A DNA stretch of 64,000 bases from Sclerodactyla briareus (lineage: Eukaryota; Echinodermata; Holothuroidea; Dendrochirotida; Sclerodactylidae): positions 1 to 64,000 of the forward strand of contig JAODTK010001444.1 in the NCBI GenBank assembly GCA_026419785.1, given 5' to 3'. The position numbers and the translations under genes are program-made. The notes below the pieces were generated by a model. It was given only the letters and a program-made list of their open reading frames with translations. It was not told the DNA's origin and made no database searches. The stretch's first letter is position 1, and every line of letters starts with the position of its first letter. Below, piece after piece: positions 30,430 through 51,500 of this stretch.

Positions 30430-30554
30430 TCAGCAAACTGTTCTCTGATAAAAGATGCCATCATCTCTCGTCAAATTTTTGGTCGGGGTCTCTATGGCGT
30501 CGGTCCAGTGCTTTTTCCTGTCTCCGCGCCTGGTTGAACCTAGCTGAACACCAC
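30430..30554 (-). CDS. Rph3a: C2B domain, last exon
   Basis: The acceptor TTTGTTTCCACCAG is followed by two bases completing the Gly codon of the previous exon. It then reads GVQLGSTRRGDRKKHWTDAI, ETPTKNLTR. This is the conserved end of C2B (rabphilin: GVxLG...GERLKHW...ERWH). In the present frame it ends at TGA at 30,430. If a five-base insertion near 30,455 is ignored, the frame gives WHLLSEN, matching the family's terminal RWHxLxNE, and stays open to about 30,227. The true stop is therefore uncertain. Confidence 0.75.
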
Positions 30555-33500
30555 CTGGTGGAAACAAAATGAACTCTCTAATATTCAGATTGGACATATC
30601 CCGTTTCGCGGGGGGGGGGGAAAGAAGATATCTAACAGGCTTCCCAAATTCCACTGCATTCAATTACAAACCAAATGAGGCACACAGAGAATGGCACACC
30701 CCTCCGGCCTTGGGCAGATTCAGAATGATTGGTAATTTGAGGTTTTTGTATTCATTGTATAATCTTCCTGGGGGGGGGGGGGGAGGGGCATAGTGGACAA
30801 TTGTTCCTTACAATTCTCTCGCTTTCTAATTTCCTTTTCATATGACTACAGGCCATGTCAGGGAGGCTACGTACAGGCATTATTTTTACACAAATAATTA
30901 TTGATCCCTAGTTTGGCAAGGAAAATCAGTAGGCATACTATAACTCCTTATGAATACTCCTACCATACCAAATAAGGTGGGCTGGTGGGCAAGATTACAT
31001 AATCATCATCAAATATATTCACCATTCAGTTTATAGTAGGCTATTTCGTGGGATACAAATTGTACCAGGGTGCTCTCATGGAATTTGCCAGAACCAATCA
31101 GCCTCCTCCCAATCCCCTTAGATCCAGACCTGGGTTAAGGTTGTATTCGGCCACTATACCAGAACACCTCTGAAAAGATACCACTCCAGCAATCTGTTAC
31201 ACATTCTGATCCCAACCCACTATGTTGAGTCAATATCCTAAAACCTTTATAGACCAGATAAAGAACAGCTCTCTAAAAAAAAACAAAAAGTGCAAAATTT
31301 GAATACTAAGACACTGTAGGTACCTTCATACACTGATCCCACTATGACAAATGAGCAGCACAGACCAGCATGGGGCAAACTCAAAAGCTGCCACTAACCA
31401 AAGTATCATCGCCTACAATCTTATTGCTACTAAATGTTGATTGGAGCCAAACGTAGTGTGACAGCCTATCGAGGGGGAAGCAAGGACCCCTCAGCACTTT
31501 CCTCAAGGACTACAGAAGGAATCATTACCAATGTAGTCATTGCTGCCACATCCTTGTTCCCACACGGGTCACTTCCAGGCGTCTGTGGGACGTTTCTGGG
31601 GGAAGTTGTACATGAATGTCTATGAGAAGAGGATAATGTGATATGTTTAACAATGAAAACAAAGTTCACTAAGTGTGTAGAAAGATTAGTAGAATAAAAT
31701 TCTCTGAGGCCTTATGCGAAAGCTGTTTGCCTTATGTGATTGCGACTTGACAAGGAATCCTGATTATGATCAACCTGCAAGCCCATGTACCTTAGGGGAC
31801 CTGACTACAAAGAGCAATAGGATTTTACTAACAACTTCTTTCTGCAACAGTTACATGGTTAGAGGTTTCTAGACTTCGACCTATTGACTTCAGAATCATC
31901 TCAAAAGTAGAATCTCTCTACGTTTTACCATTGCCACAATATTGTCACCTTGGACCTGACCAAAGAAATAGAAATAGGATCATCCACTCCAGAGACCAAC
32001 CCACTATGGAAGTATAAGCCATCGACATCTTTTTAATTTCCATTCAACAAATTTACCATATTCACAGGGTTTTGAGACGGTGACCTAAGATGACTTTGAA
32101 AAAGACCCAAAATCACAAGAGGAATCAATCTTCCCTTATATGGCCGACCTAAATACCAAGTATAAGCATCTCCATCTTCCAATTCACTTTTTCGTGTTTA
32201 CAAGGCTTTCAAACCATTGACTCAAAGGTGACCTTGGACCTGACCCAAGAAAAAAAACCTACATGCTAAGGATAGCCTTCCACATCTTTGCCCTGAACAG
32301 ATATCATGCTTACAAAGAACATAATAGACACACACACACATACAACACATGTCAGCATGATCGCATAGATTCCTTGTGCCTCTGGCAAGGAATACAAAAG
32401 TACCTCCAACAGGTCATAGTGGAATGTTATTTGAGAGACATGTGGCTTAAATAATCACTAACCAAATGTATTGTGAAGGACTTCTATTAGGATTCAAGAC
32501 ATCACAATGGGAATTTGATGTGAATACCTACACCACTGACTTGAAGTTTGGAAGTGGGTTTGCAAAGATTCACATTTCAAAGCAGTTGACAATCTTGAAA
32601 CATTAATGTACCCACCAAGAAAACAATCATATTATGAGTATAAACCCTGAAGAATGACATTGTGAGTTTTTATTGTTTGTTTTTCACTTGATTAGGCTGG
32701 TTGATACGTAATTTTAACAACCCATCAACACATGCATATTATATGTCTTTCAAATTCTTCCATTTTAGTCACCTTTCCTGTGAGTAAATATAATATCATG
32801 GTTTTTATACAGTGCAAAATCACCAAAATTGAGTCCGAAACTGCCTATTACCAGTGATCAATCATTAGTGACTTGTCTACCATACAATACAGTACATGTT
32901 GCCCTTACTGTTCACTTCTGAAGTACTATGTGTGTAACTTTGCAACAACTAATACGTCTCCCTGGAAGTACCCAAATACAGAAATACCCTTGGTATATTC
33001 TGCAACCCCCAGCTCAAAGAATGAACTTTATTAGTAGTAGTAGTTACCCACCCACCTCCATATATTCAGGGTTTAGTGTCTTCTTCGTTGTAGCTTCTTC
33101 TGCTTAGTCTTCTTCTTGGGGTCTGGTTGTAGGTAACTTAAGTGTAAAAAGATCTTTGTGAGTCAGAAAATAATGATCACAATAATTCTCTTTCATGTAA
33201 TATGAAATTAGTTTAGTCTTCCGTAAATATAGCTTTCAGAAGTTTGGAGGATCACAGTTCAATTTGGTTTGATATCTATGGGTTCAGAGAGCCAATAGGG
33301 CTCATCAAGGAACCGTTTTGTTCGTGAATGAGCATCAGTGATACATTTCTCTTTCTCTTGTCTAGTGGCTCCGAGGCTGTCAAGGCAGGGTTTAACCAAT
33401 GCCACATTTTATGTCCTCATCCGAAGGGACAAGCAGTGAAATCACAGGATCTGACCACTATTCTGAGAATTTGGAGGAGTGGAAAATTCATGTCCCACAT

Positions 33501-36500
33501 GACTGTGACTGCTCACAGCCGACCTCTGACTAATGAGATTTACCCAGAGACCTGTGTAGGAACACGCAAATAATACAGCAACTGTGGGAGGGTAAAAGTC
33601 TTTAATGATGGGGTTAGTGGTTACCGCACTTAACAATCATGTAAGGAACCGTGAGTGGGGATGTGAATACCTATTTATCAATATCATAGTGTCAGCTGTG
33701 TGTACCAGTCTGATTCACCAGTCTGCAAGGTAGGCCTAGGCTGTTGAATTAGCTATTAATTACACAGGGCTCTGCTCAGCCTACGAACATCTCGAAACAT
33801 CTCCGAATAATGTGCTCCTAATTTTGGTGGATAGTTCAAATGAAAAGCTATTTACATGTCTGTTCCATGATTCAGTGTCTTTTGTAAGAATTCAGAGTTC
33901 TGTGAGATATAAATGAATTGACCTGTTGAAATTACCTGATGTTGGGCGAAGTTCAATGCCCGAGTCACACAGTAGACCTAACATAACGTATTCATGTATC
34001 ACGCTATGGCATGATGTAGGCCATACATGTGCATACACATCCAGCGTGATGGGGCCATATCGAGGAAATCAATGTTACTTTTTTTGCAGCATCTACCGCT
34101 AGTCCGCCTTTTTCGCTACAGGGGTTGTTTCATCTTTCATGTTTCAACTAACCTGATATTAGACATCAAAATGGAGCAAATTGCCAGCCCCTAAGTGTGC
34201 TACCTATAAATAGCACTGATCAGTGAACTAATTTCAAATTCATTGGACTGATTTCAAATTAATGGGGACTGAATATTGAACATGTCTACCAAAGAAACAT
34301 TTTTGTGGCAGTGGGACTACAGTTGCCTAAGGACGTTTAAATTGTCTTGATATTCAATAGAATCAATTTGCCGTGATGCCGCTTCTGCTGCAATCCGTAA
34401 CAATTGTGATTTTGCCTACTCAATGGTCGTTCCATGTTATTTGGATTATATTTTAACTTCCCCGTGACTGCACAGTTTTAAATAGTTGTTTGAACTCGCA
34501 TGAATCCGCTATTCACATGGTCATGCCGCATCGCCACATCCGCAATGTATGGAATACCAGCCGAAGTCTCTCTCTGAACTTTGTTTGGGCGAGATAATTC
34601 CAGCACAGTATTTATTTCCTTGCAGGGTTCCGACTGTTTCCTGCAAGAATTGTACAATCCCACACGTTAACGCTATCACTGACCCATTCCTAGTATTTGG
34701 TATGACTGTTCAGGAAGATGACCTGGCCCCCCCAGTTACAAAACAGATGCCCTTATCACTCACAGCTTGACGTATGGGTCTGAGTAGCCATTGCTGTCCA
34801 TGCGTAGAGGCCAGCACATCTGATTATCTTGAGCTGATTTGGTTATGTTTTCTTGTATTACTGTAGGCCCCGGATATCTTCCACGCTCAGACTCAGATCT
34901 CTCATCAGCCTCCTCAGACTGAAACAAATCACATGGATTGAGAGCTGCCTGGTGCACGGGATTGTTAGTGACTCAATGTCATGTAACGTTACTAAACTTC
35001 TGGTATTTCCTACATTATATTGAATACTTGATATCCGATACATCTGATCAAGTGTGTTAAATCAGGTACTATCCACATTACAGAAATTCCCCTGCGACAT
35101 TACGAGGGATCTGTGGGTACCACTGAATACAACATTATACAAGAACACTCACTTCCCAGAACCATGTACCAAGAACACTATATGCTACTGAGTAAATTCC
35201 TTCTCACAAAACTGGAAGCAATTAGCTTCGTTGCAGAGCTCCAGCTTGTGAGCCGAGGATCATGAGTTCGAATCCCACAAAGCCTACAGGCTTCTGCTGT
35301 AGTGCCCTTAGACAAGCATGTCTCCTCAACTGTCTCACATTCCCCAGTGGTAAAACTGGGGAACCTGTGATTAGTAGGCTGCGTCGTATAAAGCTGCATC
35401 CATATTGGTTTTTTTGGGGGGGATTCCCCCCGGTTACGATGATTGGTGCCTGAAATGGGTGTTGTCGGAGGACAAGTAGAGATGCGACTAATTTATATCA
35501 ATATAGTACAGGTGGCAAGTCACTAATGATCAGGGGTAATTATCTGTGAAGCGCTTTGATCATGTCGAAAGAGCGCTTATAACACCTAATATTATTAAAC
35601 GTTCACATGATTGCAAGAGAATTTATTCATTCTGTGTAGACACTTCCAGTCCTTTTTGGGTGGGTGGGGTTGGGTACTTGGTTTTCCAATATGGTCTCTT
35701 TCTACCCATAGTTGAAGGGAATCAGTCAATACTACTGGTTTTTGAGAAACTTCTTCTTACAGATGGTAACAACCAATTGACGACTTGACAATCCTAGACA
35801 AATCACATTTCAAGACTTCTAAATTATATATGTGACCCATGTCATGTTATTGACTCTTACTCCTTACTAGGTAAATTTTTTGCAACGTACACAATGCCTC
35901 TAAGTGCATGCTACTTAAGACTGTGTTTTTGTTTCCTGTGGTTCTCACTTGACAAGGAAGACTTCCCTTTTTTTACTGTGTTGCAGTGTCCTCGATCAAT
36001 GATAGCCAACTACCTTTTCTTGGAGGAACATGGAGTACGACTTAGTTTCGTTGAGCGGAAGCCTTCTTCAGAGGAAGAGGTATTCCCCGATGAAGTCTTG
36101 TGGCCCATAGCTGTCTTCATCCAAAAAGACAGCCTGCAAATTGAACATGTAACATGATTTCATTCACTGTAGGCTTACTTCTTGTCTGAAAACCATACTT
36201 TGTAGAAAGCTCATGCCGACAATACAGCAATTAATGTTAGAATTCTATAGGACTCATGTTTTGAGAGAAGCTCACACATCTTGCCAACTTTTGTTATTCT
36301 AGTCAGGAAACTGTAATTGCCGTGCCTGTTCATCAGAAGTATTGCCGTGGGAACTCGTCCAGATATCCCCATATCAACAGAGCATACACAAGAGGAGCCT
36401 GTAGTGTCTCTATGTATCCATTAGCCCACCGAAAATTGACCTAACATACTCATGATAAACTTGCACACTTTGGTGAGGTATCCCTGGTGAAACCACCAGC

Positions 36501-39500
36501 CAACCTTGCCTGGTCCACAGGGGCTTTAGTGAAACATCATCACTGACATGATGAGGCGGGTAGGGGGGGGGGAGGGGGGGAGGGGACTCGAGTGTTACAA
36601 TCACATAGACTTTTAATGTTATGGTGGCACACACGTATTAGCTGGAAGATTTATCCGCCGAAAAGGTGATCCTTCAAAAATGAGTCAGAATATTATATGG
36701 GGGTACATTGCTGCTCTGTGGTGTGAATGCAGATTTCTTTTGAATTTGTCTGAGAGAGGATATTTCAAAGTACAAATGCACTGAAAGTTTCATTGGAAAA
36801 TTGGGTCCACTTTGGTGTTTTTTTGACAAATTCAAGGACCTAAATAGGCCACTGGTCGAGGGTTCCTCGAACTGGGTCAGAAATACCATGCTAAAATAGA
36901 TCCCCTACTAGCTCCCTCAAAATCTTACACGTTCATTGGTGGACAGCGAATTGCACACGTTGGAATGGGCGGGACTCTATGCTTCACCGTGGTGTTATGG
37001 CGAATTCGAGGGTAAAAACTTCTGGAAGGTGCCAGGATGGCATGAGAACGGACGCAATTTAGTGTGTAAGTCAATAGGGAAATTAATGGGGCGTGTGCCC
37101 CCTACAAGGCTCAAATGGAAATTTTTGAATTGGAGAGCAGTCAAATCGACCAAATTTGGGTTTAAAACAATCGAATAGGCAGCTGGTGATTGAAAGCCTG
37201 TGGACTCCCGCCCTTCTCGATTTCGGGTTGATTCGGGTATAAAAACATGATTTTTACATTTGTGCATTTTCCGGCTAGTTTACACACTCACAGTCGGCCT
37301 GAATACTCAGAACCATAGTAAAACAAGTGACGAGGAGACTGCGCATGAAAGCTCAACATAGGTACCAAATTGCGCGATATCGGAAGAGATTTTGGCCTAG
37401 GGCATAGGCCGGACCATGAGGACGGTTTCGATGTGCGGCCCAGACTCTACTATAGGCCTACATGTATTACCGTTATTTAAAGGAGTTATTCAATCTTTTT
37501 CCAGGACGAAGAGAGCAGCGTGGGCCAGTGGGTGTGGCCTGTGCCCTCCAATGTTTGTCCAAGTGGGATAAATTCTAAGGTTCCATTGGCCTGAGCTATT
37601 TTGGCGGAGTAGAAGGCCTTGCGGTCACGAATCAAGAATCACGAGGAAAATAACGCTGGAGTGAGAGTTGATCCCTCCGAAGAGGCTGGTTGAGTACTCG
37701 GCTCTGGGTGGACATGGATTGTAGAGAATGGAGTGGATGATCAGGGGACCTTGTGAGGGTAGCTAAAGACTGGGTTCACTATAACAGAAGAACCTCATGC
37801 CTTGGAGCAATCAGTGGCAAGGAAGGCTGACAGAGGCAGTAAGGCATATTTGCCTTACCTTGCCTACGCCCCCCCATTTTTACCCTCCCACCCGAAATTT
37901 TCGATCTGGAGAGAGGGTAGCTGTACAGCCGAGATGGCCAGGGAAGGGAGAGCTTACATATTCAGGCACAAAGGTGGGCGGCTGTCAGGAGGGTGGGTGG
38001 TCAGACAATAGGTGTCTGCGCTCATGTAAACAACAACATGGGTTGCAGAGGCAGGCAGTGCCATCCTTCAATTTATGCCTCCAGTGTTTGGATTTGCCAC
38101 GTGTGCAGGCTCGCTGGAACGGCATGGAAGAACCAGGCACTTTTGGTAACCATCAAAGTACATATTGGTCAACCGGTGTCTTCTAACTGGAATGCACTTA
38201 GTTTAAAAATTGTGAGCCAACTCGTAGGTTTTTGTGCCTAGGTATAGTGTACTTTGTCAACTTTGTTGACAGCCTCAACCATATACCAGGCCCAATGTTT
38301 GAGCCTTCGTACCCACCCAAACCTGCACTGAAATCAATTGATGTGTATTTCTGGATGTATGGAAGTAAAAGCATGTTCGGGCAAATTTTCCATGTCCTGC
38401 TGCCGAACTCCACCTTCCATGAATGGGCACACATTTTAGCTTGTAGGTCATACCGCCAAAAAGGTTATCCTTCAAACATGAGTCCATAATATTATTTTGG
38501 CGTACATCTGCTGCTCTGTGGTTAGAGTGAATGCGAAATTTACCTTTTGACTTTGCTGAAAGAAGGATATTTCAAAGTACAAATGCTGAAATGTTTCATG
38601 GAAATTGGTCCACTTTTGGGCTGTTGTTTGAAACTTCAAGGACAAAATAGGCCCTGGTTGCGGGTCCGTCGGAAACCTGGTCGGAAAAACCATGCTAAAA
38701 AAGATCCCTACTAGCTCAAAATCTACACGTCATGGTAACAACAATCACATTTGCACATCGTTGGAATGGGCAGACTCTCTGCTCACGGTGGTGTATGGCG
38801 ATATTCGAGGTAAAACTTCTGGAGGTGCCTTGATGGCTGAGAACGGACCACCATCTAGTGTGTAAGGTCAATAGGGAAATTCTTGGGCGTGTGTGCCCCC
38901 TACCAGACATCTAAACGATTACATTGCTTCTCTTCTGTACCTCATACACCCAATCCAGCCTGTTGGAGAGATGCGAAAAAGTGTGAGGTCAGAATCTGGT
39001 GGGAACCTCAGACGATTGCCTACAACATATTACCTACATGAACATGCATAGTGCAGGTATGCGCACCTTTTTCCTTAGACCCAATCGAGCAATCCCAAGC
39101 CAGAAAAACCAGCCCTGTAGGCATGATTTGTCCCGTAGGAAATAGATTGCTGATTCCTATTATAGTGTCTTCATGTGAGATGGGTAACCACTCCACCCCA
39201 TTTGGTGGTCCCGAGTGTAGGAACACTGAATCACCCACACCATGCGCCCATAGTATTCTTTTTTAGGCGTCTTGTGACCTCGTTCTTGAGCCGCTGCAGG
39301 CTAGGAGTTTAACAGAGATAAAGTTAAGTATGGGTTAGTATTCTGTTTTTGGCTCTAATCAAATCAGTGCCGGAATGACGTACCTTTCAACCTCATTGTT
39401 ACATTCTAGAACAGTGACAGGTTATCACAAGGTTAGGGTCCGTGGACTCCTTGTACTTCCGTGCACGGATTCTAAATTTGTACCCTGTTTTTTCATGGGG

Positions 39501-42500
39501 GACTGACTTGGGAACCTGTTTTTGAGCCACTGCAGAACTAGGGTTTAATAGGCATTATTAAGAATGGGCCTGCCAACGTTACATGTATGGTGGGTGTGTA
39601 TCCATCAGAGAGCAGGAATCCAAGCAGCAGGGCAGATGGGGAATGGATGGAGAGAGTCACTGGTGAACAGACAAAAGATAAAATACAAGCAGTTCAGAGA
39701 TATATACTGATTGCATCCTGCAGCCCTGACTGTTTCTCATTCTCCTCATTCGTTGTCAGAACCTCTCCCCCTTGTAATGCCTTGCCATCTGTCTGCTTCC
39801 CTCTTCCTACAGTCTTCAGCTTTGCGGATCTCGAATCAACAAGCTGTCTCCCACTAATTCTTCCATCGCTCTTTCAATCCTTTCTCAGCGGCCTCGTCAA
39901 TAGTTGTTAAGCCCGCCCGTCCGTGCCCACCAACAAGAATCTCGAAGCAACAACCAATACCTCAATGTTTTCGTATGAAGGTCATCGGCTTATTATGGCC
40001 CGGTACGTCAAGCTTCCTGCCATGTACTCGGGATCGAGGGTCCTGAATTGGTCTTAGACCGCAGCTTGGTTGACTGTGAAGAGCACAATAAAGATGGTCA
40101 CCAGGTGTTCCCCATATGGTGGAATTTTTCCTTGGTCAAGAAGTTAGATTTTTTTTTGCCAAAATCTCGAAGAATTGGTAAAGATAATACTCAATCACCC
40201 CATTCCCTTACCCATAACTATTCAATGCATATCGCCTTCGCATCCGAACTAGATTTTGAACCTACAAAGACTGACATAAAATGTCATAATTCGCTGGTTG
40301 ATCTGGTGATTTTTGCAAAAGCCTTCCAATAATTCTGATATCATAGCATTTGATCTATGTAGACAACTAATTGGTATGAATGGTTCATTGGATATTGTTT
40401 CGAACAACACACTGTGTTGCATAGTTTTATGTAGTTCATGGCTAGAGGGAGGGAGGTTGGGGGTGGTAGAGAGATGCAGAAGCCTTGTGATACCACTCTA
40501 CAGTCCATGGGAATAATGAGGGGGCCCGACTGCACAAGTAGGTGACCGAGTGCAAGTTGGGAGAGAAGAAGTCACATGACGGGCAGGAAAGAAGCCAGAG
40601 AGCAGCGACACAGCTCATTCACATAACAATGCATGGCAAGAGAGGCCAGAACAAAAGACGTGCTTGTAAAACGTTTTAGAGTGGTAATGATACTCTGGTT
40701 TTCTCATATCATTTCTAGTTATAGGTGTGGCCTATACTATCAAATATGTAACTGTTCAAATTGTAAACCTTCTACACAAGTCCCTTGAAATTTGAATACC
40801 AATTATTATAGGTGGAGTTAGACTGATTATTACTTAAGAAGCACCAACATATATAGCAATTCCCTAGACCCAAACATTCATTGTCAGACGGTTTTGTATC
40901 CAGAATATCTTTCCTGTTTCCAAATGTACCCAACTGAAACTGGTTATTCAATGCCCAACCATAAGCTTTAGACATCTCCAGAACAATGAGCGTTCCATTC
41001 TCAGTTTTAAGCAGGTAGACTAGAGACTTGGGGAAATCTATGAGAGTGACAGACTGACAAACAGAATAATTGTAGGAAACAGACATGCAAACTTGTCCAC
41101 AGCACAGCAAATTACTCCAACATAGATGTGCTTTGAGACAGCACCAAGATAGGGTGAAGATCAAGTGAATGCTTGGCTCGCTCCATGCATAAACCATTGC
41201 AATACATGCCTGGTATGACTTCACTTTATGATGACACAGATACTACTTTCAGTTTTTTCAATGTTATAAGGACAAACTATTTCATGATTCGGTTAAATCA
41301 AATGCTCTTCGGCCCCCACGTTCCCCATTGCTCATGAAGTCTTAGTGATATATATTACATTCAAGGCATGAACGATTTCTCTCTTCTAAACAGAATCATG
41401 GATCACTGATGTCCAATATTATACACTATTGAATGTTGCCTTATTGTGAGTGTAATAATACCATGTACTTTCTCGAACAAGTTGTCCAAATAAGTTCTTG
41501 TCCATCTTCATTCTACCTGTTTATTACATATCATTATTCTAATTTTTGACTTTTTGAATTGTCTCCTGCATCTGCTTTTCTTTCTTTTGTTGTATGTAAT
41601 TTGGGCTAAATAAATTTGAATCTAGTCAAACTCCATGTGACTTAGTACAGTGCTGGGCCTAGATGTGGGACTTTCTTGGCCATCTTTCTCTTTTTGATAC
41701 TCACTAATGGCTGATGATTATGTTATATAAAACCAAGTATTGCTATCTTTAATCATTTAATAGTTTAAATAACATATTTTATTTGTTTTGAATGTGTTGA
41801 AACAGTGAACTTAATTGTTCTAATTAACTTGACTGTGCCAGGTAGAAATACAATATTCAATCTCTCAAGTCATGTATATTCTGAACTATCGAACTTAAGA
41901 ATACCACTAATGGCTGATGATTATGTTATATAAAACCAAGTATTGTTATATTTAATCATTTAATAGTTTAAATAACATATTTTATTCGTTTGAAATGAAA
42001 ACAGTGAAATTAATTGTTCTAATTAACTTGACTGTGCCAGGTAGAAATACAATATTCAATCTCTCAAGTCATGTATATTCTGAACTATCGAACTTAAGAA
42101 TACCCAGTATTAAACACAAAAACTGTTTATTGTTTCATAACATTACAGTGCAGTGTAACACAGCATTAACTTGTGGGAATTACGATGACAAACAAATCAT
42201 GCACCAAAATCACAGACAGCTACTACATTTTCCATTTGCCTCGCTGAGATGAAATACCACACCTCAAAGAATAGTTCAAAGGATTATTTACTAAATTATT
42301 CGAGAATAAAATTCTTACATGTGGACACCATCACCAACAAACAGCATTAGAAATAGTGTCGAACACTAAAATTGTGTATCAATTTTGGAAGTTATTGAGA
42401 AAACCAGTTTGCAATCTATAGTCTCCCATACGAACTGACCACTACAAATATTCAATTGATGAGGATTTCATGCTGCGACACCAGCCTATTCCAAATGCCG

Positions 42501-45500
42501 AAATCACCAGCATTCAAGACAAGACAGGTGGTTTTAAAATGCAACAGTGTGAACGAAAAAACAATGGGGCAGTTAGGACAGTAGGAGGAAAGGAACCATG
42601 GGCCACAGTTAATGACAATACCAACAGAAATGAAAATTGATAGAAAAAATTACTCGACTACTTTTAATGCAGAGGCCATCTCTAGCTAGAAAGAGAGTGA
42701 CAAGAAAGACAAAGAAGATTATAGAGAGGAGGAAAAGAGGGGGAAAGAGAAGACATGGAATGAATCATGTGTTTAACGTGTGGTAGTATGAATAGCCAAT
42801 TTACAGCAGCCCCCAAAAGGCAAAATGAAGGAATCATATCAACACAAAAGTGGTGATATAGTAGAGACCAGGAAACTGTAAATCCATCAGCTCAAACTAA
42901 ACCTGCATATGTTGTTCCCCTGCAGTTTTAAGTACAATAGTCATGGACAAGCACAGATGGATACATGTTGCAATCCCTCAACCGAAACTTGGTTACACCT
43001 ACAATGTTACACATTGAAGTATAATTCAGGCTTTCTTGGGTACAAAAAAAAAAAACAGAGCAAACAGTTTGTTGTAGGATTTTTTACTGTTTCTTCACCG
43101 AACAACTGAATATCTGCCCCTAGTACCTTACGGATGTTACTTTCACAGCCCTTTCTCTAATTATATCCCACTTCGGGGTTATTATGGTTTTGGCTTCGCC
43201 GTCTCTGCCGCTGCTGCGTCCGCACCCGCGTCCGCCACTTTTCTTGTTAGCGCCACACTCTCCAACACTTTGTCCGCCGTTTGAGCCGAAACTTGGCACA
43301 CAGTCATGTCCGCTTAGGTGAAATCTTGGTTGAGTTCAAAAGTGTGGGGCGTTCACCAACATGAACGGGGGAGGTTCGGCTTAATTTGCATAATTTGCAC
43401 ACATTCTCAAAAGTTGTTGAGATTGCACGAAAACTTGGTAGAGTGGATTATGTATTGGTCCCAAAAAAAGTGGAAGGTCATGTAGTGCAAGGTTCGGTTC
43501 AGAGGTCATAAAAATTACGCGGATGTTAAAAAAGTTTTGCCGGGATTTAAATTGAATGTGAAACTTAGTAGGGATGGACGAATGTTTTGGTCCGAAAAAA
43601 AGGGAGGACATTTTCAGGCGGTATTTTGAAGGTCACCAGAGGTCAAATTGGGGCTTATTATTCGAAAGGTTGTCAGATTCAACGAAAAACTTGGAAAGGT
43701 TTGTGGACGATGTTTGGTCCCGAAAAAAGTGGAGGACACTTCGGGGTCACAGAGGTCAAAGTCACGCTAAATTGCCCAATTTGCGCATTTCTCGGAAGTT
43801 GGTCTGATTTCCACGAACTGGGTAGGTGGAGGGACTATAATTGGTCCCGAAAGAATTGAAGATGTTATTTCAAGGTCACCAAAGGGTAAAATCACGCGAT
43901 TATCAAAAGTTTGTCGTCAGATTAAACGAAACTGGTAGGGACATGAAAGCCGCTTTTGAGTCTACATTCTCGGGTGAAAAATTGCACTATAAAAAGCTAT
44001 CAATTATCGTTATATCCCATAATTGCCATCCACATGGCAACTTATATACAGCCATCTTCACCAACTGATCGCGAGGTGGGGGATATACACGTTGGCGGTT
44101 TTTTACCCTCAGCATGGTCTAGTTTCATATTAGTAGTATTTTTTAATGTTTGAAAAACAAACTGCCCATATTGTATGGTGGGGATCATTTATGCCCAACT
44201 CGCATTTAATTCACATGGATTTTGTTTTTGGCCATAAACACCATGGAAATCATGTCCAATGTTCATGTTAACCAGATATCTTTGAACATTGGGAGGTGGA
44301 AAGAGGACATATAATAACACCATAAATCAGAAGGTTCTACTAGTTGCATTGTTGAGTTTACTCAATTTACTTTTCAAGGAATTTGAGAAATTGATGTGAC
44401 CCGTGGGACGAGTTATCAGGTTGAACAGTTTTGTATGACTATCAGTTGCCAATAATTGTTCTTTTTCAACAGGATTTTGAAAAGTAATTGTTTTGCATGC
44501 CCATTCCCACTGATGACACTTTGAGGGGCAATGTGTCACTTCAGATTGTGCTCGGCATGAAAAATGTGTTGTTTCACTAAACTAAACAATACAGTCTATG
44601 TGTTGGATTCTCTTAACATAATTGATGGAACGTACCACATGTCAGGTGAACAAACAGGACATTAGAGTTTACCATAGCTCATAGAACCTAACCTTGCTGC
44701 TGCCATATATGTGATAAATAATTGGAATAACCATTTACCTCTGTTAAAAATATATTTGGTAATACTGCCCTTTATCCTGTGGAACTGTCTCTGCTCAGAA
44801 CTCTCTTCAAAGGTGGAATGAAAGCATGGGAAAACCTTTGTAGCAGATGAGCAAACACTCTGGCCTTAACCCCCCCATTCCATTCATGTATTGATAGTAT
44901 GACACCTGTGGTAGATACAGTAAGTGATAATGTAAGTGACTGCAATGAATTGCACTGAAAATAGAAAAAAAATGCTTCACTAATGAATGCGTATGATCAA
45001 ACAACGAAATAAGGAAGATACATTGACAAATTTTGGCTATTTACCAAAACACCACGGGCTCTCGCTTGGTTAGTTTAGAGAGGCAAACATAGGCAGCTCC
45101 ATTGTCAGTCTGAAAATGATATTAATAGTGAAAAATGCCCAAAAGACCAAACACCAAAAAACCCTGAGTGATAAGACTGCAACTAAAGTTATTACTCACT
45201 CTGTCCTGTAGTTTGTAGGGGGGAAAGGGAATCAAGGCAGTTGTTTGGAAGGAGAATAATAAAATAGTAGTGTCAGCTTTCCATTATACAGTTAACATCA
45301 ATAGTAATAAATAAGAACTGTAGTCCTTCAAACAACGATACCCTAGGTTAATGAGTTTAACAACACAGCGATGCATCAGTCTTGAAACGTGTCAGTACAC
45401 AGAGAATAAGATACTGGAGATGACTGAAACAGGTTTTTGTGGTGATGCCTTGCCTTCACAAAAATACCTTGGAACTGGAAAGGTATCCCATGTGGCGCTG

Positions 45501-48500
45501 TGTGCACACTTATGGAGGTGACATCATGTTATGCTCCACTGATCGTGTTAGGTGGAGCTCAATGACGTTATGCTCCATTGAGCTCTACCTAACACCGGAC
45601 AGTGTTTTCCCTCAGTTGGTGCTTACCAGATGAATGGCAGTAGGTCATCTTGTTCCAGTCTTCCTATGAGACCGGAGCCTGGGACCATCCTGCTTGTCTA
45701 TCAATAGGTAATAGGAGGGGAGGGGGAAGACTTTGTTCCCCCCTTACCACCAAGTGTTTTGACTAGACTGAAATCAGGCTCCTTTGTGAGTTGTGGGCAA
45801 ATCCCCTTTCCTCCATAATCTGTCTCTAGGTCTAATAATCAGCACCACCTGACCTCCTGATGTAATGTACACCTGGTTCAAGCAGAGATCTCCCTACAAA
45901 GGCACTAGATACTCATTGATAGTTTTGATTAACACATAACAATCTTCTCTGTCTTAGAGATTAACCTTACGAGGAAAGATTGAACGGTCTTGGTCTAACT
46001 TCGATGGAACTGACACGAGGTGAATTGATTCAGGTGTTCAAATGTTCATGGGCTTCGAGGTCCTTTCCTCCCACTATTCATTTGTTTAAAAAAAATACCA
46101 CAATACCAAAAAATTGCCTCAAGCTTTGTGGGAAATGACTTAGATAGGGCATCGGAATCTTTCTTCTCGGCAAGAGTTATTAAGGAGTGGAATAGTCTTT
46201 CCTAAGATGTTGTTTTTGTCTACTATTGTGAATGCCTTCAAGAACAGTCTTGATTCATTCAGAATTGTGGGCGATTCTTTAGGCATCTGGGTTGTTTTTC
46301 TTCTCTTTTGGGCTTTTGTATCACGTATAGAAGAATTTACTGTAGCACACATTTCGCATTGAAGGTGACGAAATCCGCATCACCTCATGGCTCCAACGTC
46401 TCCCTCCGATTACACAGCCCTCTATAACTTTCAAAAAATCATTCAAGAATATTCCATCCACTGCAATGTTAAATTTTCATTAGTATAAATTTGATACTTA
46501 CAAGCTTTAACTTTTTTTATCGTAATAATGGGGAAATCCCTACCACCTTTTTTTCAGCCTGTCTTGTTTTGAAACATAGTTTTGTAAACAGAAGTGTTGC
46601 CATTCATGGCTCATTTTTGGCGATCCTATCATTCAGTGGGCACATGCAGACATTACTATAAATCTGCATGATTATTTATAGTTTGGAGTGGCAACGGTTG
46701 CCATTCAGTGCTCATTTGGCGATCCTATCATTCAGTTGTATTGTGTGGCGACGATTCAGGACATTACCATCGAAAAAATCTGCTGATTATTATTGTGATT
46801 ATTCATGATTATTATGATTGCATTGGCACTTGTAACCAGACACATAGTGAAGTTGGTTGACGGTGTGTATGATGATCCTGACCGTTTCGGGTAAATATTG
46901 GTTATTCTCCCTGTCAAGACCATATGGGGAAGAATAAGTTCTGAAACTTTTTAACTACCATTAATTGTCTTTTGGGTATATTAGTTGAGATGCACGCTTG
47001 TCAGAAACTGAAGTTGAAACAGAAAGGTGCCACTTAGCGCTAGCCTGAAAAACAGCCTAGGCCTCGGTTTGTGAACGCAGGCTTTATACAGGTACTAAAG
47101 CCGGTGAGCGCAGGCTAGGCTGTGTAGTTGCTTTCGGAGTCTCATGCTATCCATGAGGACTTGTCCTTCTGACCCTTTCTCACTAAACTAATAAATTAAA
47201 CTACACTAAACTAAATCGTGTGAAATGTTTACAAACTAAAGAGTATTACCACTGTAAACGAATTGATTACCTAGGTGCCTGTAAACAGTAAACAGTCTCA
47301 TCCATGCCCTCATATATCTACTTACCCTTACCCGACTAAGCCCTTGGAAGGATGTGAAGTTGACGTAGGATCAGAGCCAGCCATTAGGGTCCATGGCCTT
47401 GAGGCCAGGGGCCCGGTGGATCATGCACTGGAGCTCTTGTTTTTGTCGTTGTAGACTACAACTTGACTTCCAAGTTTTCCAAGGCTTACTGATGAGTAAG
47501 ACCATGAGAGATCTTAGGGGAATTTGGTTTAGTAAGTTTTTAGATGAATTGATCTGCTGCCAAATCAATCCGCGTGATGCCTCAATTTAATGTCCTCTTA
47601 GTGCTGACTAAAAGGTTTTGAGTCTCAGCTCTGGATTGGGAATAATGCCTTCATTTTCTAACTTTCCCCTAAAGGCCCCATCGTCATCTAACAGATTTGC
47701 CTTTAAAAACACAGGTAAAAAGAGGACATATTGAACCCCCCCCCCCACCACAGCCCCAAATTTGGGGGTTTTAAAAACATTTTCCCTTGTCAAGTTATCC
47801 ATTTAGAGACGTTTTGAAAACAGAAGTTGAAGGAATCTACTGACATCATGAGGGGGAATGCTGCAAAGGCTGCCCATAGAAGCGACCCTAAACAGTGAAT
47901 TTTATAACAGAAATACAAAAAATAGGTATTTATTAGAAATTGATGAGATTTTGATATCTTGTGAATGATGTTGTAAGATCTCACCCATAGTTTGTTTGCT
48001 ACAGCAATTTCGAAAGTGCATATTTTACTTAGCATTATGGGGGGATTCCACGATTACCCCGTGATGTCACAAGGCATATTTTACGATAGATGGGTTTGGC
48101 TGGCCATAATGTCATAAGTGAAACTCCAATGCTCATGTAGAGCACCACACACTATTGGTATCCGGTCACATTTGAAAGCCTGTCTGTCTCATATTAGGAA
48201 TAATGCCACATTTTCTAACTATTTTACCTCACTAGCTATTCCTATGGGCTTTTTCCTAACACCGAGTTGCTCCCTTTACTCCATGCCAATGTGGAGCACC
48301 ACACACTTATCGCATCCAGACACATTTCAAGCCTTTGCAAGAAAGGTAAAAAATTTGGAATCCCACACCCAACCCAACCACTCGGATGCTCTCTAAAACT
48401 CAAGTTTCCATCACCTCATTGAAGGAAAAGATCCTGCAAGATCTGTTTGCCAAGGAGCACTCTTTGGTCTTTTTTGCTTCTCGGTGCCTCGTGCTGGCAT

Positions 48501-51500
48501 TTGCCACCCGCTAGTCAGTCTTGACTTGGGGGAACATTTTGTCTACTCTTGAGATGAGACTCAAAATCAAAGCTCATACTAGCCAACTACCCCTTGATGA
48601 CATAAAAAATTAGCATTTGAATAGACACAAGAATCCGGTGGTTTCGGACTCACGATCAACGTTATCCTCATCCTTTTCCATTCGTCATCAACGGTCCAGC
48701 ATTTGCACCCTGCTAGTTCAGTCTTGACTTGGGGGAACATTTTGTCTACTCTTGAGATGAGACCTCAAAGCTCAAATACTAGCCAAATACCCCTTGATGA
48801 CATAAAAAATTAGCATTTGAATAGACACAAGAATCCGGTGGTTTCGGACTCACGATCAACGTTATCCTCATCCTTTTCAAGTCCGTCATCAACGTGTCCC
48901 ATTTCGCCGTCTCTTCCGCTGGTGCGTCGTCTTGACCTGGTTCTTCTGCAGCTTCCTCATCCTGTTTCTTGCCTGCAATAAGTAAAGGACGCGTGGGTGG
49001 TGCATCACCACCCTCCCCACCACTCGGCTGGGGGCCGACCACTGCCGTGATCTGGATACCTCATCCTTGGGGGCGAGTTCTGGTCTATCTCCAGGGTCTT
49101 GCTCTTGTGTCCCGATGACACTGTGATGGTGAGCTTCTTGGGGCCCGTTGATTCCTTCTTCTCGACCGGGCATAGCCATGGAACTGTGACGGTGGGGGGC
49201 TTTCCTGGGTGGGCTGTGTGATGGGGGCTGTGGGGGGCTCTGCAGAGAGAACAATGGTGCTACGTGCTACTGAAGCTGGCAGGAAATGACAAGCAGCAAA
49301 GCTATGGTGGAAGCAGGGAAGGGGAGGGGGGTCAACATGAACAAGGGATGGAAGCAAGTAGGAGGAAGTCTTTAAAAAAGCAAGTCATCAGTGACAATGC
49401 AGTTATGTCATGTTCAATGTCACATCCTGTAACAGATAGTTCTCAAGTGGCAGTCCAAGATGTGCATTCCACAACCATTCAAATGATAGTAGAGCTCCAC
49501 TTATGCTCATGTTTTTTAGCATCCCACCAAAAATCTTGGAACGTTTTCCTCATAAACAACCAATTGCTTTCTTTTCTACCCTGCCTTTTTTCAGTTGCGG
49601 GCACTAGATTCATTACTCCCCCATACCCTATACACTGCTATGCAATATGTATGAACAATGGGAACATGCTATTTTTCACATTTTAAATACTTCATCATGA
49701 CACCTGTGATGCAATATAATCCGAAGCAAGTGTTGGTTCATCTTCATTTTCTGGGAGATTCTGCTGTTCTGCTTATATGTTATCATTCCACCAAAAAGAC
49801 TTGAGAACCCTGGTCTTATAAACATCTAATTGACTTGCTGCCAAATACTGGCTTTTCTACCCTGCCCTTTTTTTTTCAGTTGTGGCCATTTAGAATCATT
49901 ACTATACAGTATACACTGCTGTGCATGAACAATGGAACATGCTATTTTTCACATTTTAAATACTTCATCATGACACCTGTGATGCAATCTAATTTTGAAA
50001 CAAGCGTGCTTTCATTATTTCATGTTCACACGAGATTCTCTGCTTCTTAAAGAAGCTCTTCTCCTTGTCCAGCCACTAGGTGTTTCGATATTGATTTTTT
50101 TATTTTATGACTCAGCTGTGAGGATTTTTAATATGAAGTCTATGAAATTATTTTGTCATGAGAATCTCATTTGGTCCTGCAGGCCGCCACAGTAATTGTG
50201 TGAAATGGAAAACTGCCTGCTTATCATTGGAAGCACCTGATTGCTCAGAATGTACATTTCAAATTTGATCCGAAGCCTCCTCGTGGCCATGTAGGTCAAC
50301 CAAGCAACATAAGGGCTTGACATGGTTCAGGTATGATAAGGCATATGTGTCGTATCTTCAGAGGGGGTTCATCTCCTCCAGGTTTCTACTCATATCTATC
50401 TATACAATAGACTCTGGGTTTTGTTAAACAACCTAACTAATCTGGACAGAAAATAGGCTTCAGCAAATGGCAAGCTAATGACCTGAAACTATACTCTGGG
50501 TTTGATTCTTACTGATTCAAATGGACATGATAGACAGGTGGGAATGTGTATGTGCTCTCGTGGTATGAGGAAAAGGATCAGAACTACAGGTTCAACAAGT
50601 CATCAAACATTCATTATTTATGAATCCAAGGTGTATGAAAGCGATAAATTACACAGACAGCAAGCACATAGAGTAGCTGTACATATTGAAGTGATTGGAA
50701 AATAAGGGTTCAACTATTGATGACTGGTTTTAATTGATGGCACCCACGATCAGTGGGAATAAGAAACAAAAATGACGGGGTAGGGGGAAGGCTTATAAGG
50801 AAATCTTCACCTGACAGTTTTTCATGAACATGCCAAACAAAACATTTTCAAGTGATTAAAAAATAAGGGGTTCAACCATTGGTGACTGATTTTACTTACA
50901 TTGATGGCAGTAATCAGTTGGGCATAAGTAACAAAACTGCGAGAGATAGTTTGACTGATTTGTTCAAAATGCTAATGGCACTGAGGGATGGCTTCCACAA
51001 AAAGGTCCCAGCATGAGCTTTCACGGTTCAGAGATCGGACACGACCTACGGACAGGCGGACAGACAGACCGACAAGGCGGACAGAAATACAGAAGACAGA
51101 CCACACACACAACAAAGTGCCCCTATGTCTCTCCTGGAACAAAGTTCAGGAGAGGACAAAAAAGGATATGTACTCCATAATGGGGACCACCTACAAGTAT
51201 GAGCTTCATCACTCCCGGTGGGTTGAGGTTATTGGGTTAACGAGCTGAAATGGCCATATATCAATTTTTTACAATTTTCCCATTCTTCCCAACCTGACCC
51301 TGTGTGTCTACACCAGAAACAATCGGGTTCTTAACTCCCAATAAGAAAGCTACACACCAAATTTCAACTTGATTGGACCAAGCATTTCTGGACTTATCCT
51401 CTCCACAGATTTCAACTTTGACCTTTAATGACCTCAGATGACGACCCCAAAAACAAAAGAAGAGTTGTGTACACATATGGGAAACCCAAACATACCAGTG

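Follow-up and report, generated by a model that had tools for sequence, protein, structure and literature searches.

A frame-broken rabphilin/Doc2-type tandem-C2 locus in Sclerodactyla briareus, probably a second, diverged rabphilin-type gene

Can a gene be recognized, and its family named, on a strand where no long open reading frame marks it, and if so, is that gene still working? The question is raised by the minus strand of a stretch of Sclerodactyla briareus DNA (the window, 64,000 nucleotides at the start of contig C1435, in an assembly of 319 Mb and 3171 contigs), where an original prediction, made from the letters alone, had placed a rabphilin/Doc2-like tandem-C2 gene of five exons among short ORFs. 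That prediction found a true locus of the family it named; the integrity of the gene is unproven. Overall, we believe, with a probability of a little under 60%, that the locus is a second, diverged rabphilin-type tandem C2A-C2B gene, a paralog of a better preserved rabphilin on another contig (C2890), that most of its frame breaks are assembly errors, and that it would make a soluble protein. The rabphilin/Doc2 kind of gene is already known; what is new is this added member.

Seven exons of rabphilin/Doc2 tandem-C2 type lie in consecutive order on the minus strand from 47.47 to 30.44 kb (Table 1). The five places first proposed, and their order, are confirmed, and two further exons that had been overlooked (exons 2 and 5) complete the series; the proposed extension of the locus to 49.2 kb finds no support, the frame at 48892-49266 matching no Pfam family. 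Read on the minus strand, the motifs run from C2A to C2B: GLKAMDPNG (47380-47406), LDEDSYG (36104-36124) followed by FIGE, SDPYVK (34766-34783), SNDYIG (31527-31544) and GVQLG (30538-30552). The motif announced at 34.8 kb is present but does not read AMDSNG..., one letter having been misread, and LEVT and SNDYIG, which had been joined in the exon at 31.5 kb, both occur there but in different frames. As had also been noticed, no long ORF lies over the gene, because every one of its exons is frame-broken.

Table 1. The seven exons of the tandem-C2 locus, with positions in the window
Exon	Position	Strand	Part and motif	Frame breaks and stops
1	47332..47474	-	C2A start, query residues 1-50	4 frame breaks
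2	39963..40073	-	C2A, query residues 51-86	4 frame breaks
3	36011..36133	-	C2A end, LDEDSYG...FIGE	2 frame breaks, 1 stop (rat rabphilin alignment)
4	34764..34918	-	C2B start, with RMDSNGYSDPYVKL	3-4 frame breaks
5	33056..33136	-	C2B, ...KKTLNPEYME	1 frame break
6	31529..31619	-	C2B, LEVT in one frame and SNDYI in another	2 frame breaks
7	30437..30554	-	C2B end, GVQLG...KHW; WHLLSEN follows in a different frame	1 frame break, 1 stop

The controls exclude chance as the source of these motifs. With a custom aligner of protein to DNA that allows for introns and frame breaks, rat rabphilin reached a spliced score of 450 on the minus strand of 29.0-50.5 kb under strict settings, whereas none of 14 controls, which used the opposite strand, different stretches of the contig or a reversed query, exceeded 241; under looser settings, which yielded spurious small exons and gave way to the strict ones, the score was 565.5 and the highest of 16 controls was 435. 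In a splice-free test, seven exon segments each from rat rabphilin, Doc2b and the C2890 gene were compared with both strands of 124 kb, and the predicted place was the best in 20 of 21 cases, the best places falling in order at about 47332, 39960, 36011, 34763, 33056, 31527 and 30443. The sole miss was exon 1 with the C2890 sequence (as a spliced query, the C2890 read-through likewise put this exon at 48.7-48.8 kb instead), and with rabphilin and Doc2b exon 1 again took the top place. Exons 2 and 6 came top with all three references and are weak when taken alone (65 vs 60 and 58 vs 57, respectively, with rabphilin). A translated search, the check that the original prediction had proposed, gave a more partial picture: tblastn with rat rabphilin C2A-C2B returned four of its five places as top hits (E 0.0006 to 0.008), but the fifth, at 31.5 kb, only at a chance-level E of 4.3, as it did the exons at 33.1 and 40.0 kb (0.51 and 0.82).

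The splice borders are not independent evidence, because the aligner favours GT/AG. At the junction 31528/30555, phase 1 and GT...AG borders are agreed by all three references, and here the matching phases that had been predicted hold. The other predicted junction, near 36.0/34.9 kb, is less sure: Doc2b alone gives it as 36010/34919, in phase 0 with GT...AG, while rat rabphilin leads to a non-AG acceptor at 34955 and the C2890 sequence to 35953/34892. The 5' edge of exon 4 is accordingly placed at 34918, 34954 or 34891 by Doc2b, rat rabphilin and the C2890 sequence, respectively.

To which family does the locus belong? The joined read-through matches the Pfam C2 profile in two stretches (E = 2e-31), so the lack of any C2 profile hit, named beforehand as a refutation, did not occur; a Pfam search of 20 of the 55 window ORFs with at least 95 residues gave 0 families, and tRNA and Rfam scans of the window gave no hits. 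When the queries are scored on the DNA itself, rabphilin (450) and Doc2b (442) stand well apart from synaptotagmin-1 (252), the plus-strand controls being 226, 207.5 and 193.5. Synaptotagmin-1, which has tandem C2 domains in common with the window gene, scores so far below rabphilin that this identity is rejected. Rabphilin-3A and Doc2b chains also lead the PDB matches, with an Slp4 chain near the bottom of the best 60 (43 bits), in a comparison that is biased toward rabphilin, as is the profile match, since rat rabphilin served as the guide for the read-through. Residue for residue, the window gene is identical to rat rabphilin-3A (RPH3A; C2A and C2B, PDB 4lt7 and 2cm5) at 144 of 270 positions. 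Judged by its sequence, then, the locus falls in the rabphilin/Doc2 branch of the tandem-C2 family, as had been proposed, and its C2 part cannot choose between the two.

The assembly itself provides the closest relative. A rabphilin search located a better preserved copy on C2890, at 301.9-314.5 kb, with the end of the Rab-binding domain encoded by an exon at 283 kb. The window gene and the C2890 rabphilin have five intron sites in common, each with identical phase (following query residues 50, 86, 199, 227 and 259); the stretch of low conservation that separates the C2 domains also holds an intron, which is unmatched between the two. A tree of five sequences joins the window gene to C2890 with support of 96/97, on a branch of 0.91 vs 0.2 for C2890, and because this branch is long the place of the window gene is unsure. 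Between C2890:275-335 kb and the window there are 12 DNA matches, none of them on an exon, so we are dealing with old paralogs and not with one gene that was assembled twice; in the linker, their best matches are spread over several frames and resemble repeat DNA. Our best reading of the window gene is that it is a fast-diverging rabphilin duplicate, possibly Doc2-like.

That last qualification concerns the N-terminus. Genome-wide, the Rab-binding domain has its sole hit on C2890; between 47.5 and 124 kb on the window's own contig it scored 126.5 against controls of 124.5 and 120.5, a result in which errors or distance could hide an exon, and short probes from the domain stayed at background level in the upstream DNA. 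The PF02318 profile matched nothing, even though C2890 carries an exon of this family, and since control genomes were also silent this result is uninformative. The missing Rab-binding exon is suggestive at most, because even on C2890 the remaining zinc-finger exons are difficult to detect. The window gene differs from rabphilin in the lack of a detected Rab-binding exon in 76 kb upstream, in its longer branch and in its more numerous frame breaks. It resembles Doc2 beta in a C2A-C2B fit almost equal to that of rabphilin and in its apparent lack of a Rab-binding domain, but differs from it in that a probe for the Doc2 N-terminal Munc13-interacting motif found nothing above background in 124 kb, and in that the tree places it with C2890 and not with mouse Doc2b.

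Is the gene, then, a working one? In the rat rabphilin alignment its open frame is not kept, with 18 frame breaks (4, 4, 2, 4, 1, 2 and 1 in exons 1 to 7) and 2 stops in 270 aligned codons. At the same time, the C2890 rabphilin is also broken, by 11 breaks and 2 stops in 281 codons, and so are housekeeping genes of the same assembly: three actin copies hold 5 breaks (in a copy 352/375 identical to human actin), 3 breaks, and 9 breaks with 2 stops; one HSP70 exon holds 6 breaks in 68 codons, and one tubulin 19 in 412 conserved residues. Frame breaks alone are therefore no proof of a pseudogene, and with actin and tubulin frames broken alongside it, the window gene may be an additional copy that still works and not a dead one. 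Counted over residues with conserved neighbourhoods, ten actin, HSP70 and tubulin copies hold 68 breaks in 3003 residues, or 0.6-4.6 per 100 (loci on C2088, C11 and C1979, on C2792 at 288 kb, and on C2424 at 19, 46 and 48 kb stand outside this baseline). On this measure the window gene reaches 6.4 per 100, more than any of the ten controls, on 3 breaks in only 47 residues, and C2890 reaches 3.1, on 4 breaks in 131. In the tubulin and actin copies breaks rise together with substitutions, an association that could reflect noisy stretches or decaying copies, and some real decay at the window gene is possible.

The substitutions themselves tell a similarly guarded story. Over 248 codons common to the window gene and C2890, there are differences at 95 first, 83 second and 149 third positions, a third-position excess of 0.60 vs 0.38 and 0.34, where chance alignments give about 0.70-0.73 vs 0.51-0.60 and 0.46-0.49; since the excess lies only somewhat above that of chance alignments, it lends weak support to past selection on the gene. 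Of the residues common to rat rabphilin, Doc2b and C2890, the window gene keeps 92 of 133. At the acid sites of the C2A calcium loops it has D at all five, and at those of C2B at three of five, the remaining two, E and G, lying in loop 3 at a frame break; a comparative survey states that invertebrate rabphilins do not conserve all ten calcium-coordinating acids (PMC2823689).

The explanation that competes most directly with a working paralog is that we are looking at a duplicate of the C2890 rabphilin in decay, either as an unprocessed pseudogene or as a copy limited to the C-terminal half, which has kept its introns and exon order and whose breaks are partly real and partly assembly errors. 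We regard this as a distinct possibility, though the less likely of the two. The excess of breaks over all ten control copies, the long branch and the Rab-binding exon that was not found are all as such decay would have it, and the tracking of breaks with substitutions in tubulin and actin suggests that much-broken copies may include decaying ones. Against it, all seven exons and the five common intron sites are kept, as are the C2A calcium-loop acids, while the local break rate in the HSP70 exon is higher still and the C2890 gene, the better rabphilin, is itself broken.

Other readings fare worse. Membership in another tandem-C2 family resembling rabphilin, for example Dblc2 or the synaptotagmin-like (Slp) proteins, seems to us quite improbable: the intron sites are those of the C2890 rabphilin, with which the tree also groups the gene, and the rabphilin-guided query ranked rabphilin and Doc2b far ahead of Slp4. 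Nonetheless, Dblc2 genes, as described in PMC2823689, are anchor-less tandem-C2 genes of marine invertebrates; the queries scored on the DNA were rabphilin, Doc2b and synaptotagmin-1, and Slp was covered by the Slp4 chain among the PDB matches. In an assembly so rich in errors one might also suppose that the C2890 gene was assembled a second time, as a haplotype copy, or that there is an accidental run of motifs; we give this hardly any credence, the haplotype copy being rejected by the absence of exonic DNA matches and the accidental run by the chance controls.

If the locus is indeed a working rabphilin-type paralog, its function can be sketched by analogy. Rabphilin and Doc2 bind acidic membranes and SNARE proteins in a calcium-dependent manner, aiding vesicle docking or priming. 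The product of the window gene would likewise be a soluble tandem-C2 protein and a calcium-regulated effector: once loaded with calcium, its C2 loops would attach to acidic membranes and SNARE proteins, and this binding would in turn help vesicles to dock or to be primed. As no Rab-binding zinc finger was detected upstream, we propose a Doc2-like action that would proceed without recruitment by Rab3 or Rab27, unless a Rab-binding exon lies further out or is masked by errors.

In this context, the origin of Doc2 is of some relevance. A survey of 46 metazoan genomes (PMC2823689) reported a single Rph and no Doc2 genes in invertebrates, and derived Doc2 from the duplication and fission of an Rph3a gene. 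One might imagine that an invertebrate has evolved its own Doc2, as a rabphilin duplicate that retains only the tandem-C2 half and arose independently of the vertebrate duplication and fission; we consider this doubtful. Among the titles listed in the literature searches, none concerned an invertebrate rabphilin duplicate. Were the window gene real and expressed, it would represent a lineage-specific duplicate of rabphilin, and a natural comparison for the origin of Doc2 from rabphilin. More generally, missing long ORFs in this assembly mean broken frames, not absent genes, and gene callers would drop such genes or label them pseudogenes.

Some minor observations remain. A weak C2 match lies at C2509:194112-194237. 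A search for COX1, meant to help place the organism, gave 0 matches. The actin introns, in a pattern that fits an invertebrate such as an echinoderm, fall at codons 41/42, 121/122 and 204, with none later; the last two occur in two of the three copies, and all three in one.

Across ten copies of actin, HSP70 and tubulin genes in the Sclerodactyla briareus assembly, we counted 68 frame breaks in 3003 conserved residues in total; frame errors are abundant in the assembly itself, not only in the window's rabphilin/Doc2-type gene. Four stretches of the window (21.3-23.6, 46.1-46.3, 51.1-51.5 and 62.7-62.8 kb) are 70-78% alike to parts of contig C2890, which carries the better conserved rabphilin paralog, at 276-300 and 328 kb. 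These stretches are probably repeats common to the two contigs, and they indicate that one kind of genome is the source of both.

Two head-to-tail repeat pairs of near-equal period lie in the window, and the stretch of C2890 examined contains another such pair, with a period of 182. Small indels, grouped in clusters, distinguish the copies within these pairs, which may have arisen from assembly overlaps that were left unmerged, among other possible causes.

Features located in the window and elsewhere in the assembly
Feature	Location	Details
Head-to-tail pair	window 41697-42104	period 199 bases, 2.0 copies, 94% matches
Head-to-tail pair	window 48497-48899	period 200 bases, 2.0 copies, 92% matches
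Frame-broken actin, HSP70 and tubulin genes	C1260:163456-170820, C2792, C2424, C2306, C894	
Further C2 locus	C330:302181-307252	

Within the 36.0-34.9 kb intron, between exons 3 and 4 of the window gene, positions 35180-35490 contain a tRNA-like GGGATTCGAACTC box. By eye, this interval is a candidate short interspersed element; an ARAGORN scan of the window, this interval included, found no tRNA.

The further C2 locus appears, on inspection by eye, nearer to synaptotagmin-like proteins (Slp) than to rabphilin. An additional weak C2 match to the C2890 sequence lies at C2509:194112-194237 (E 0.003, 50% identity).
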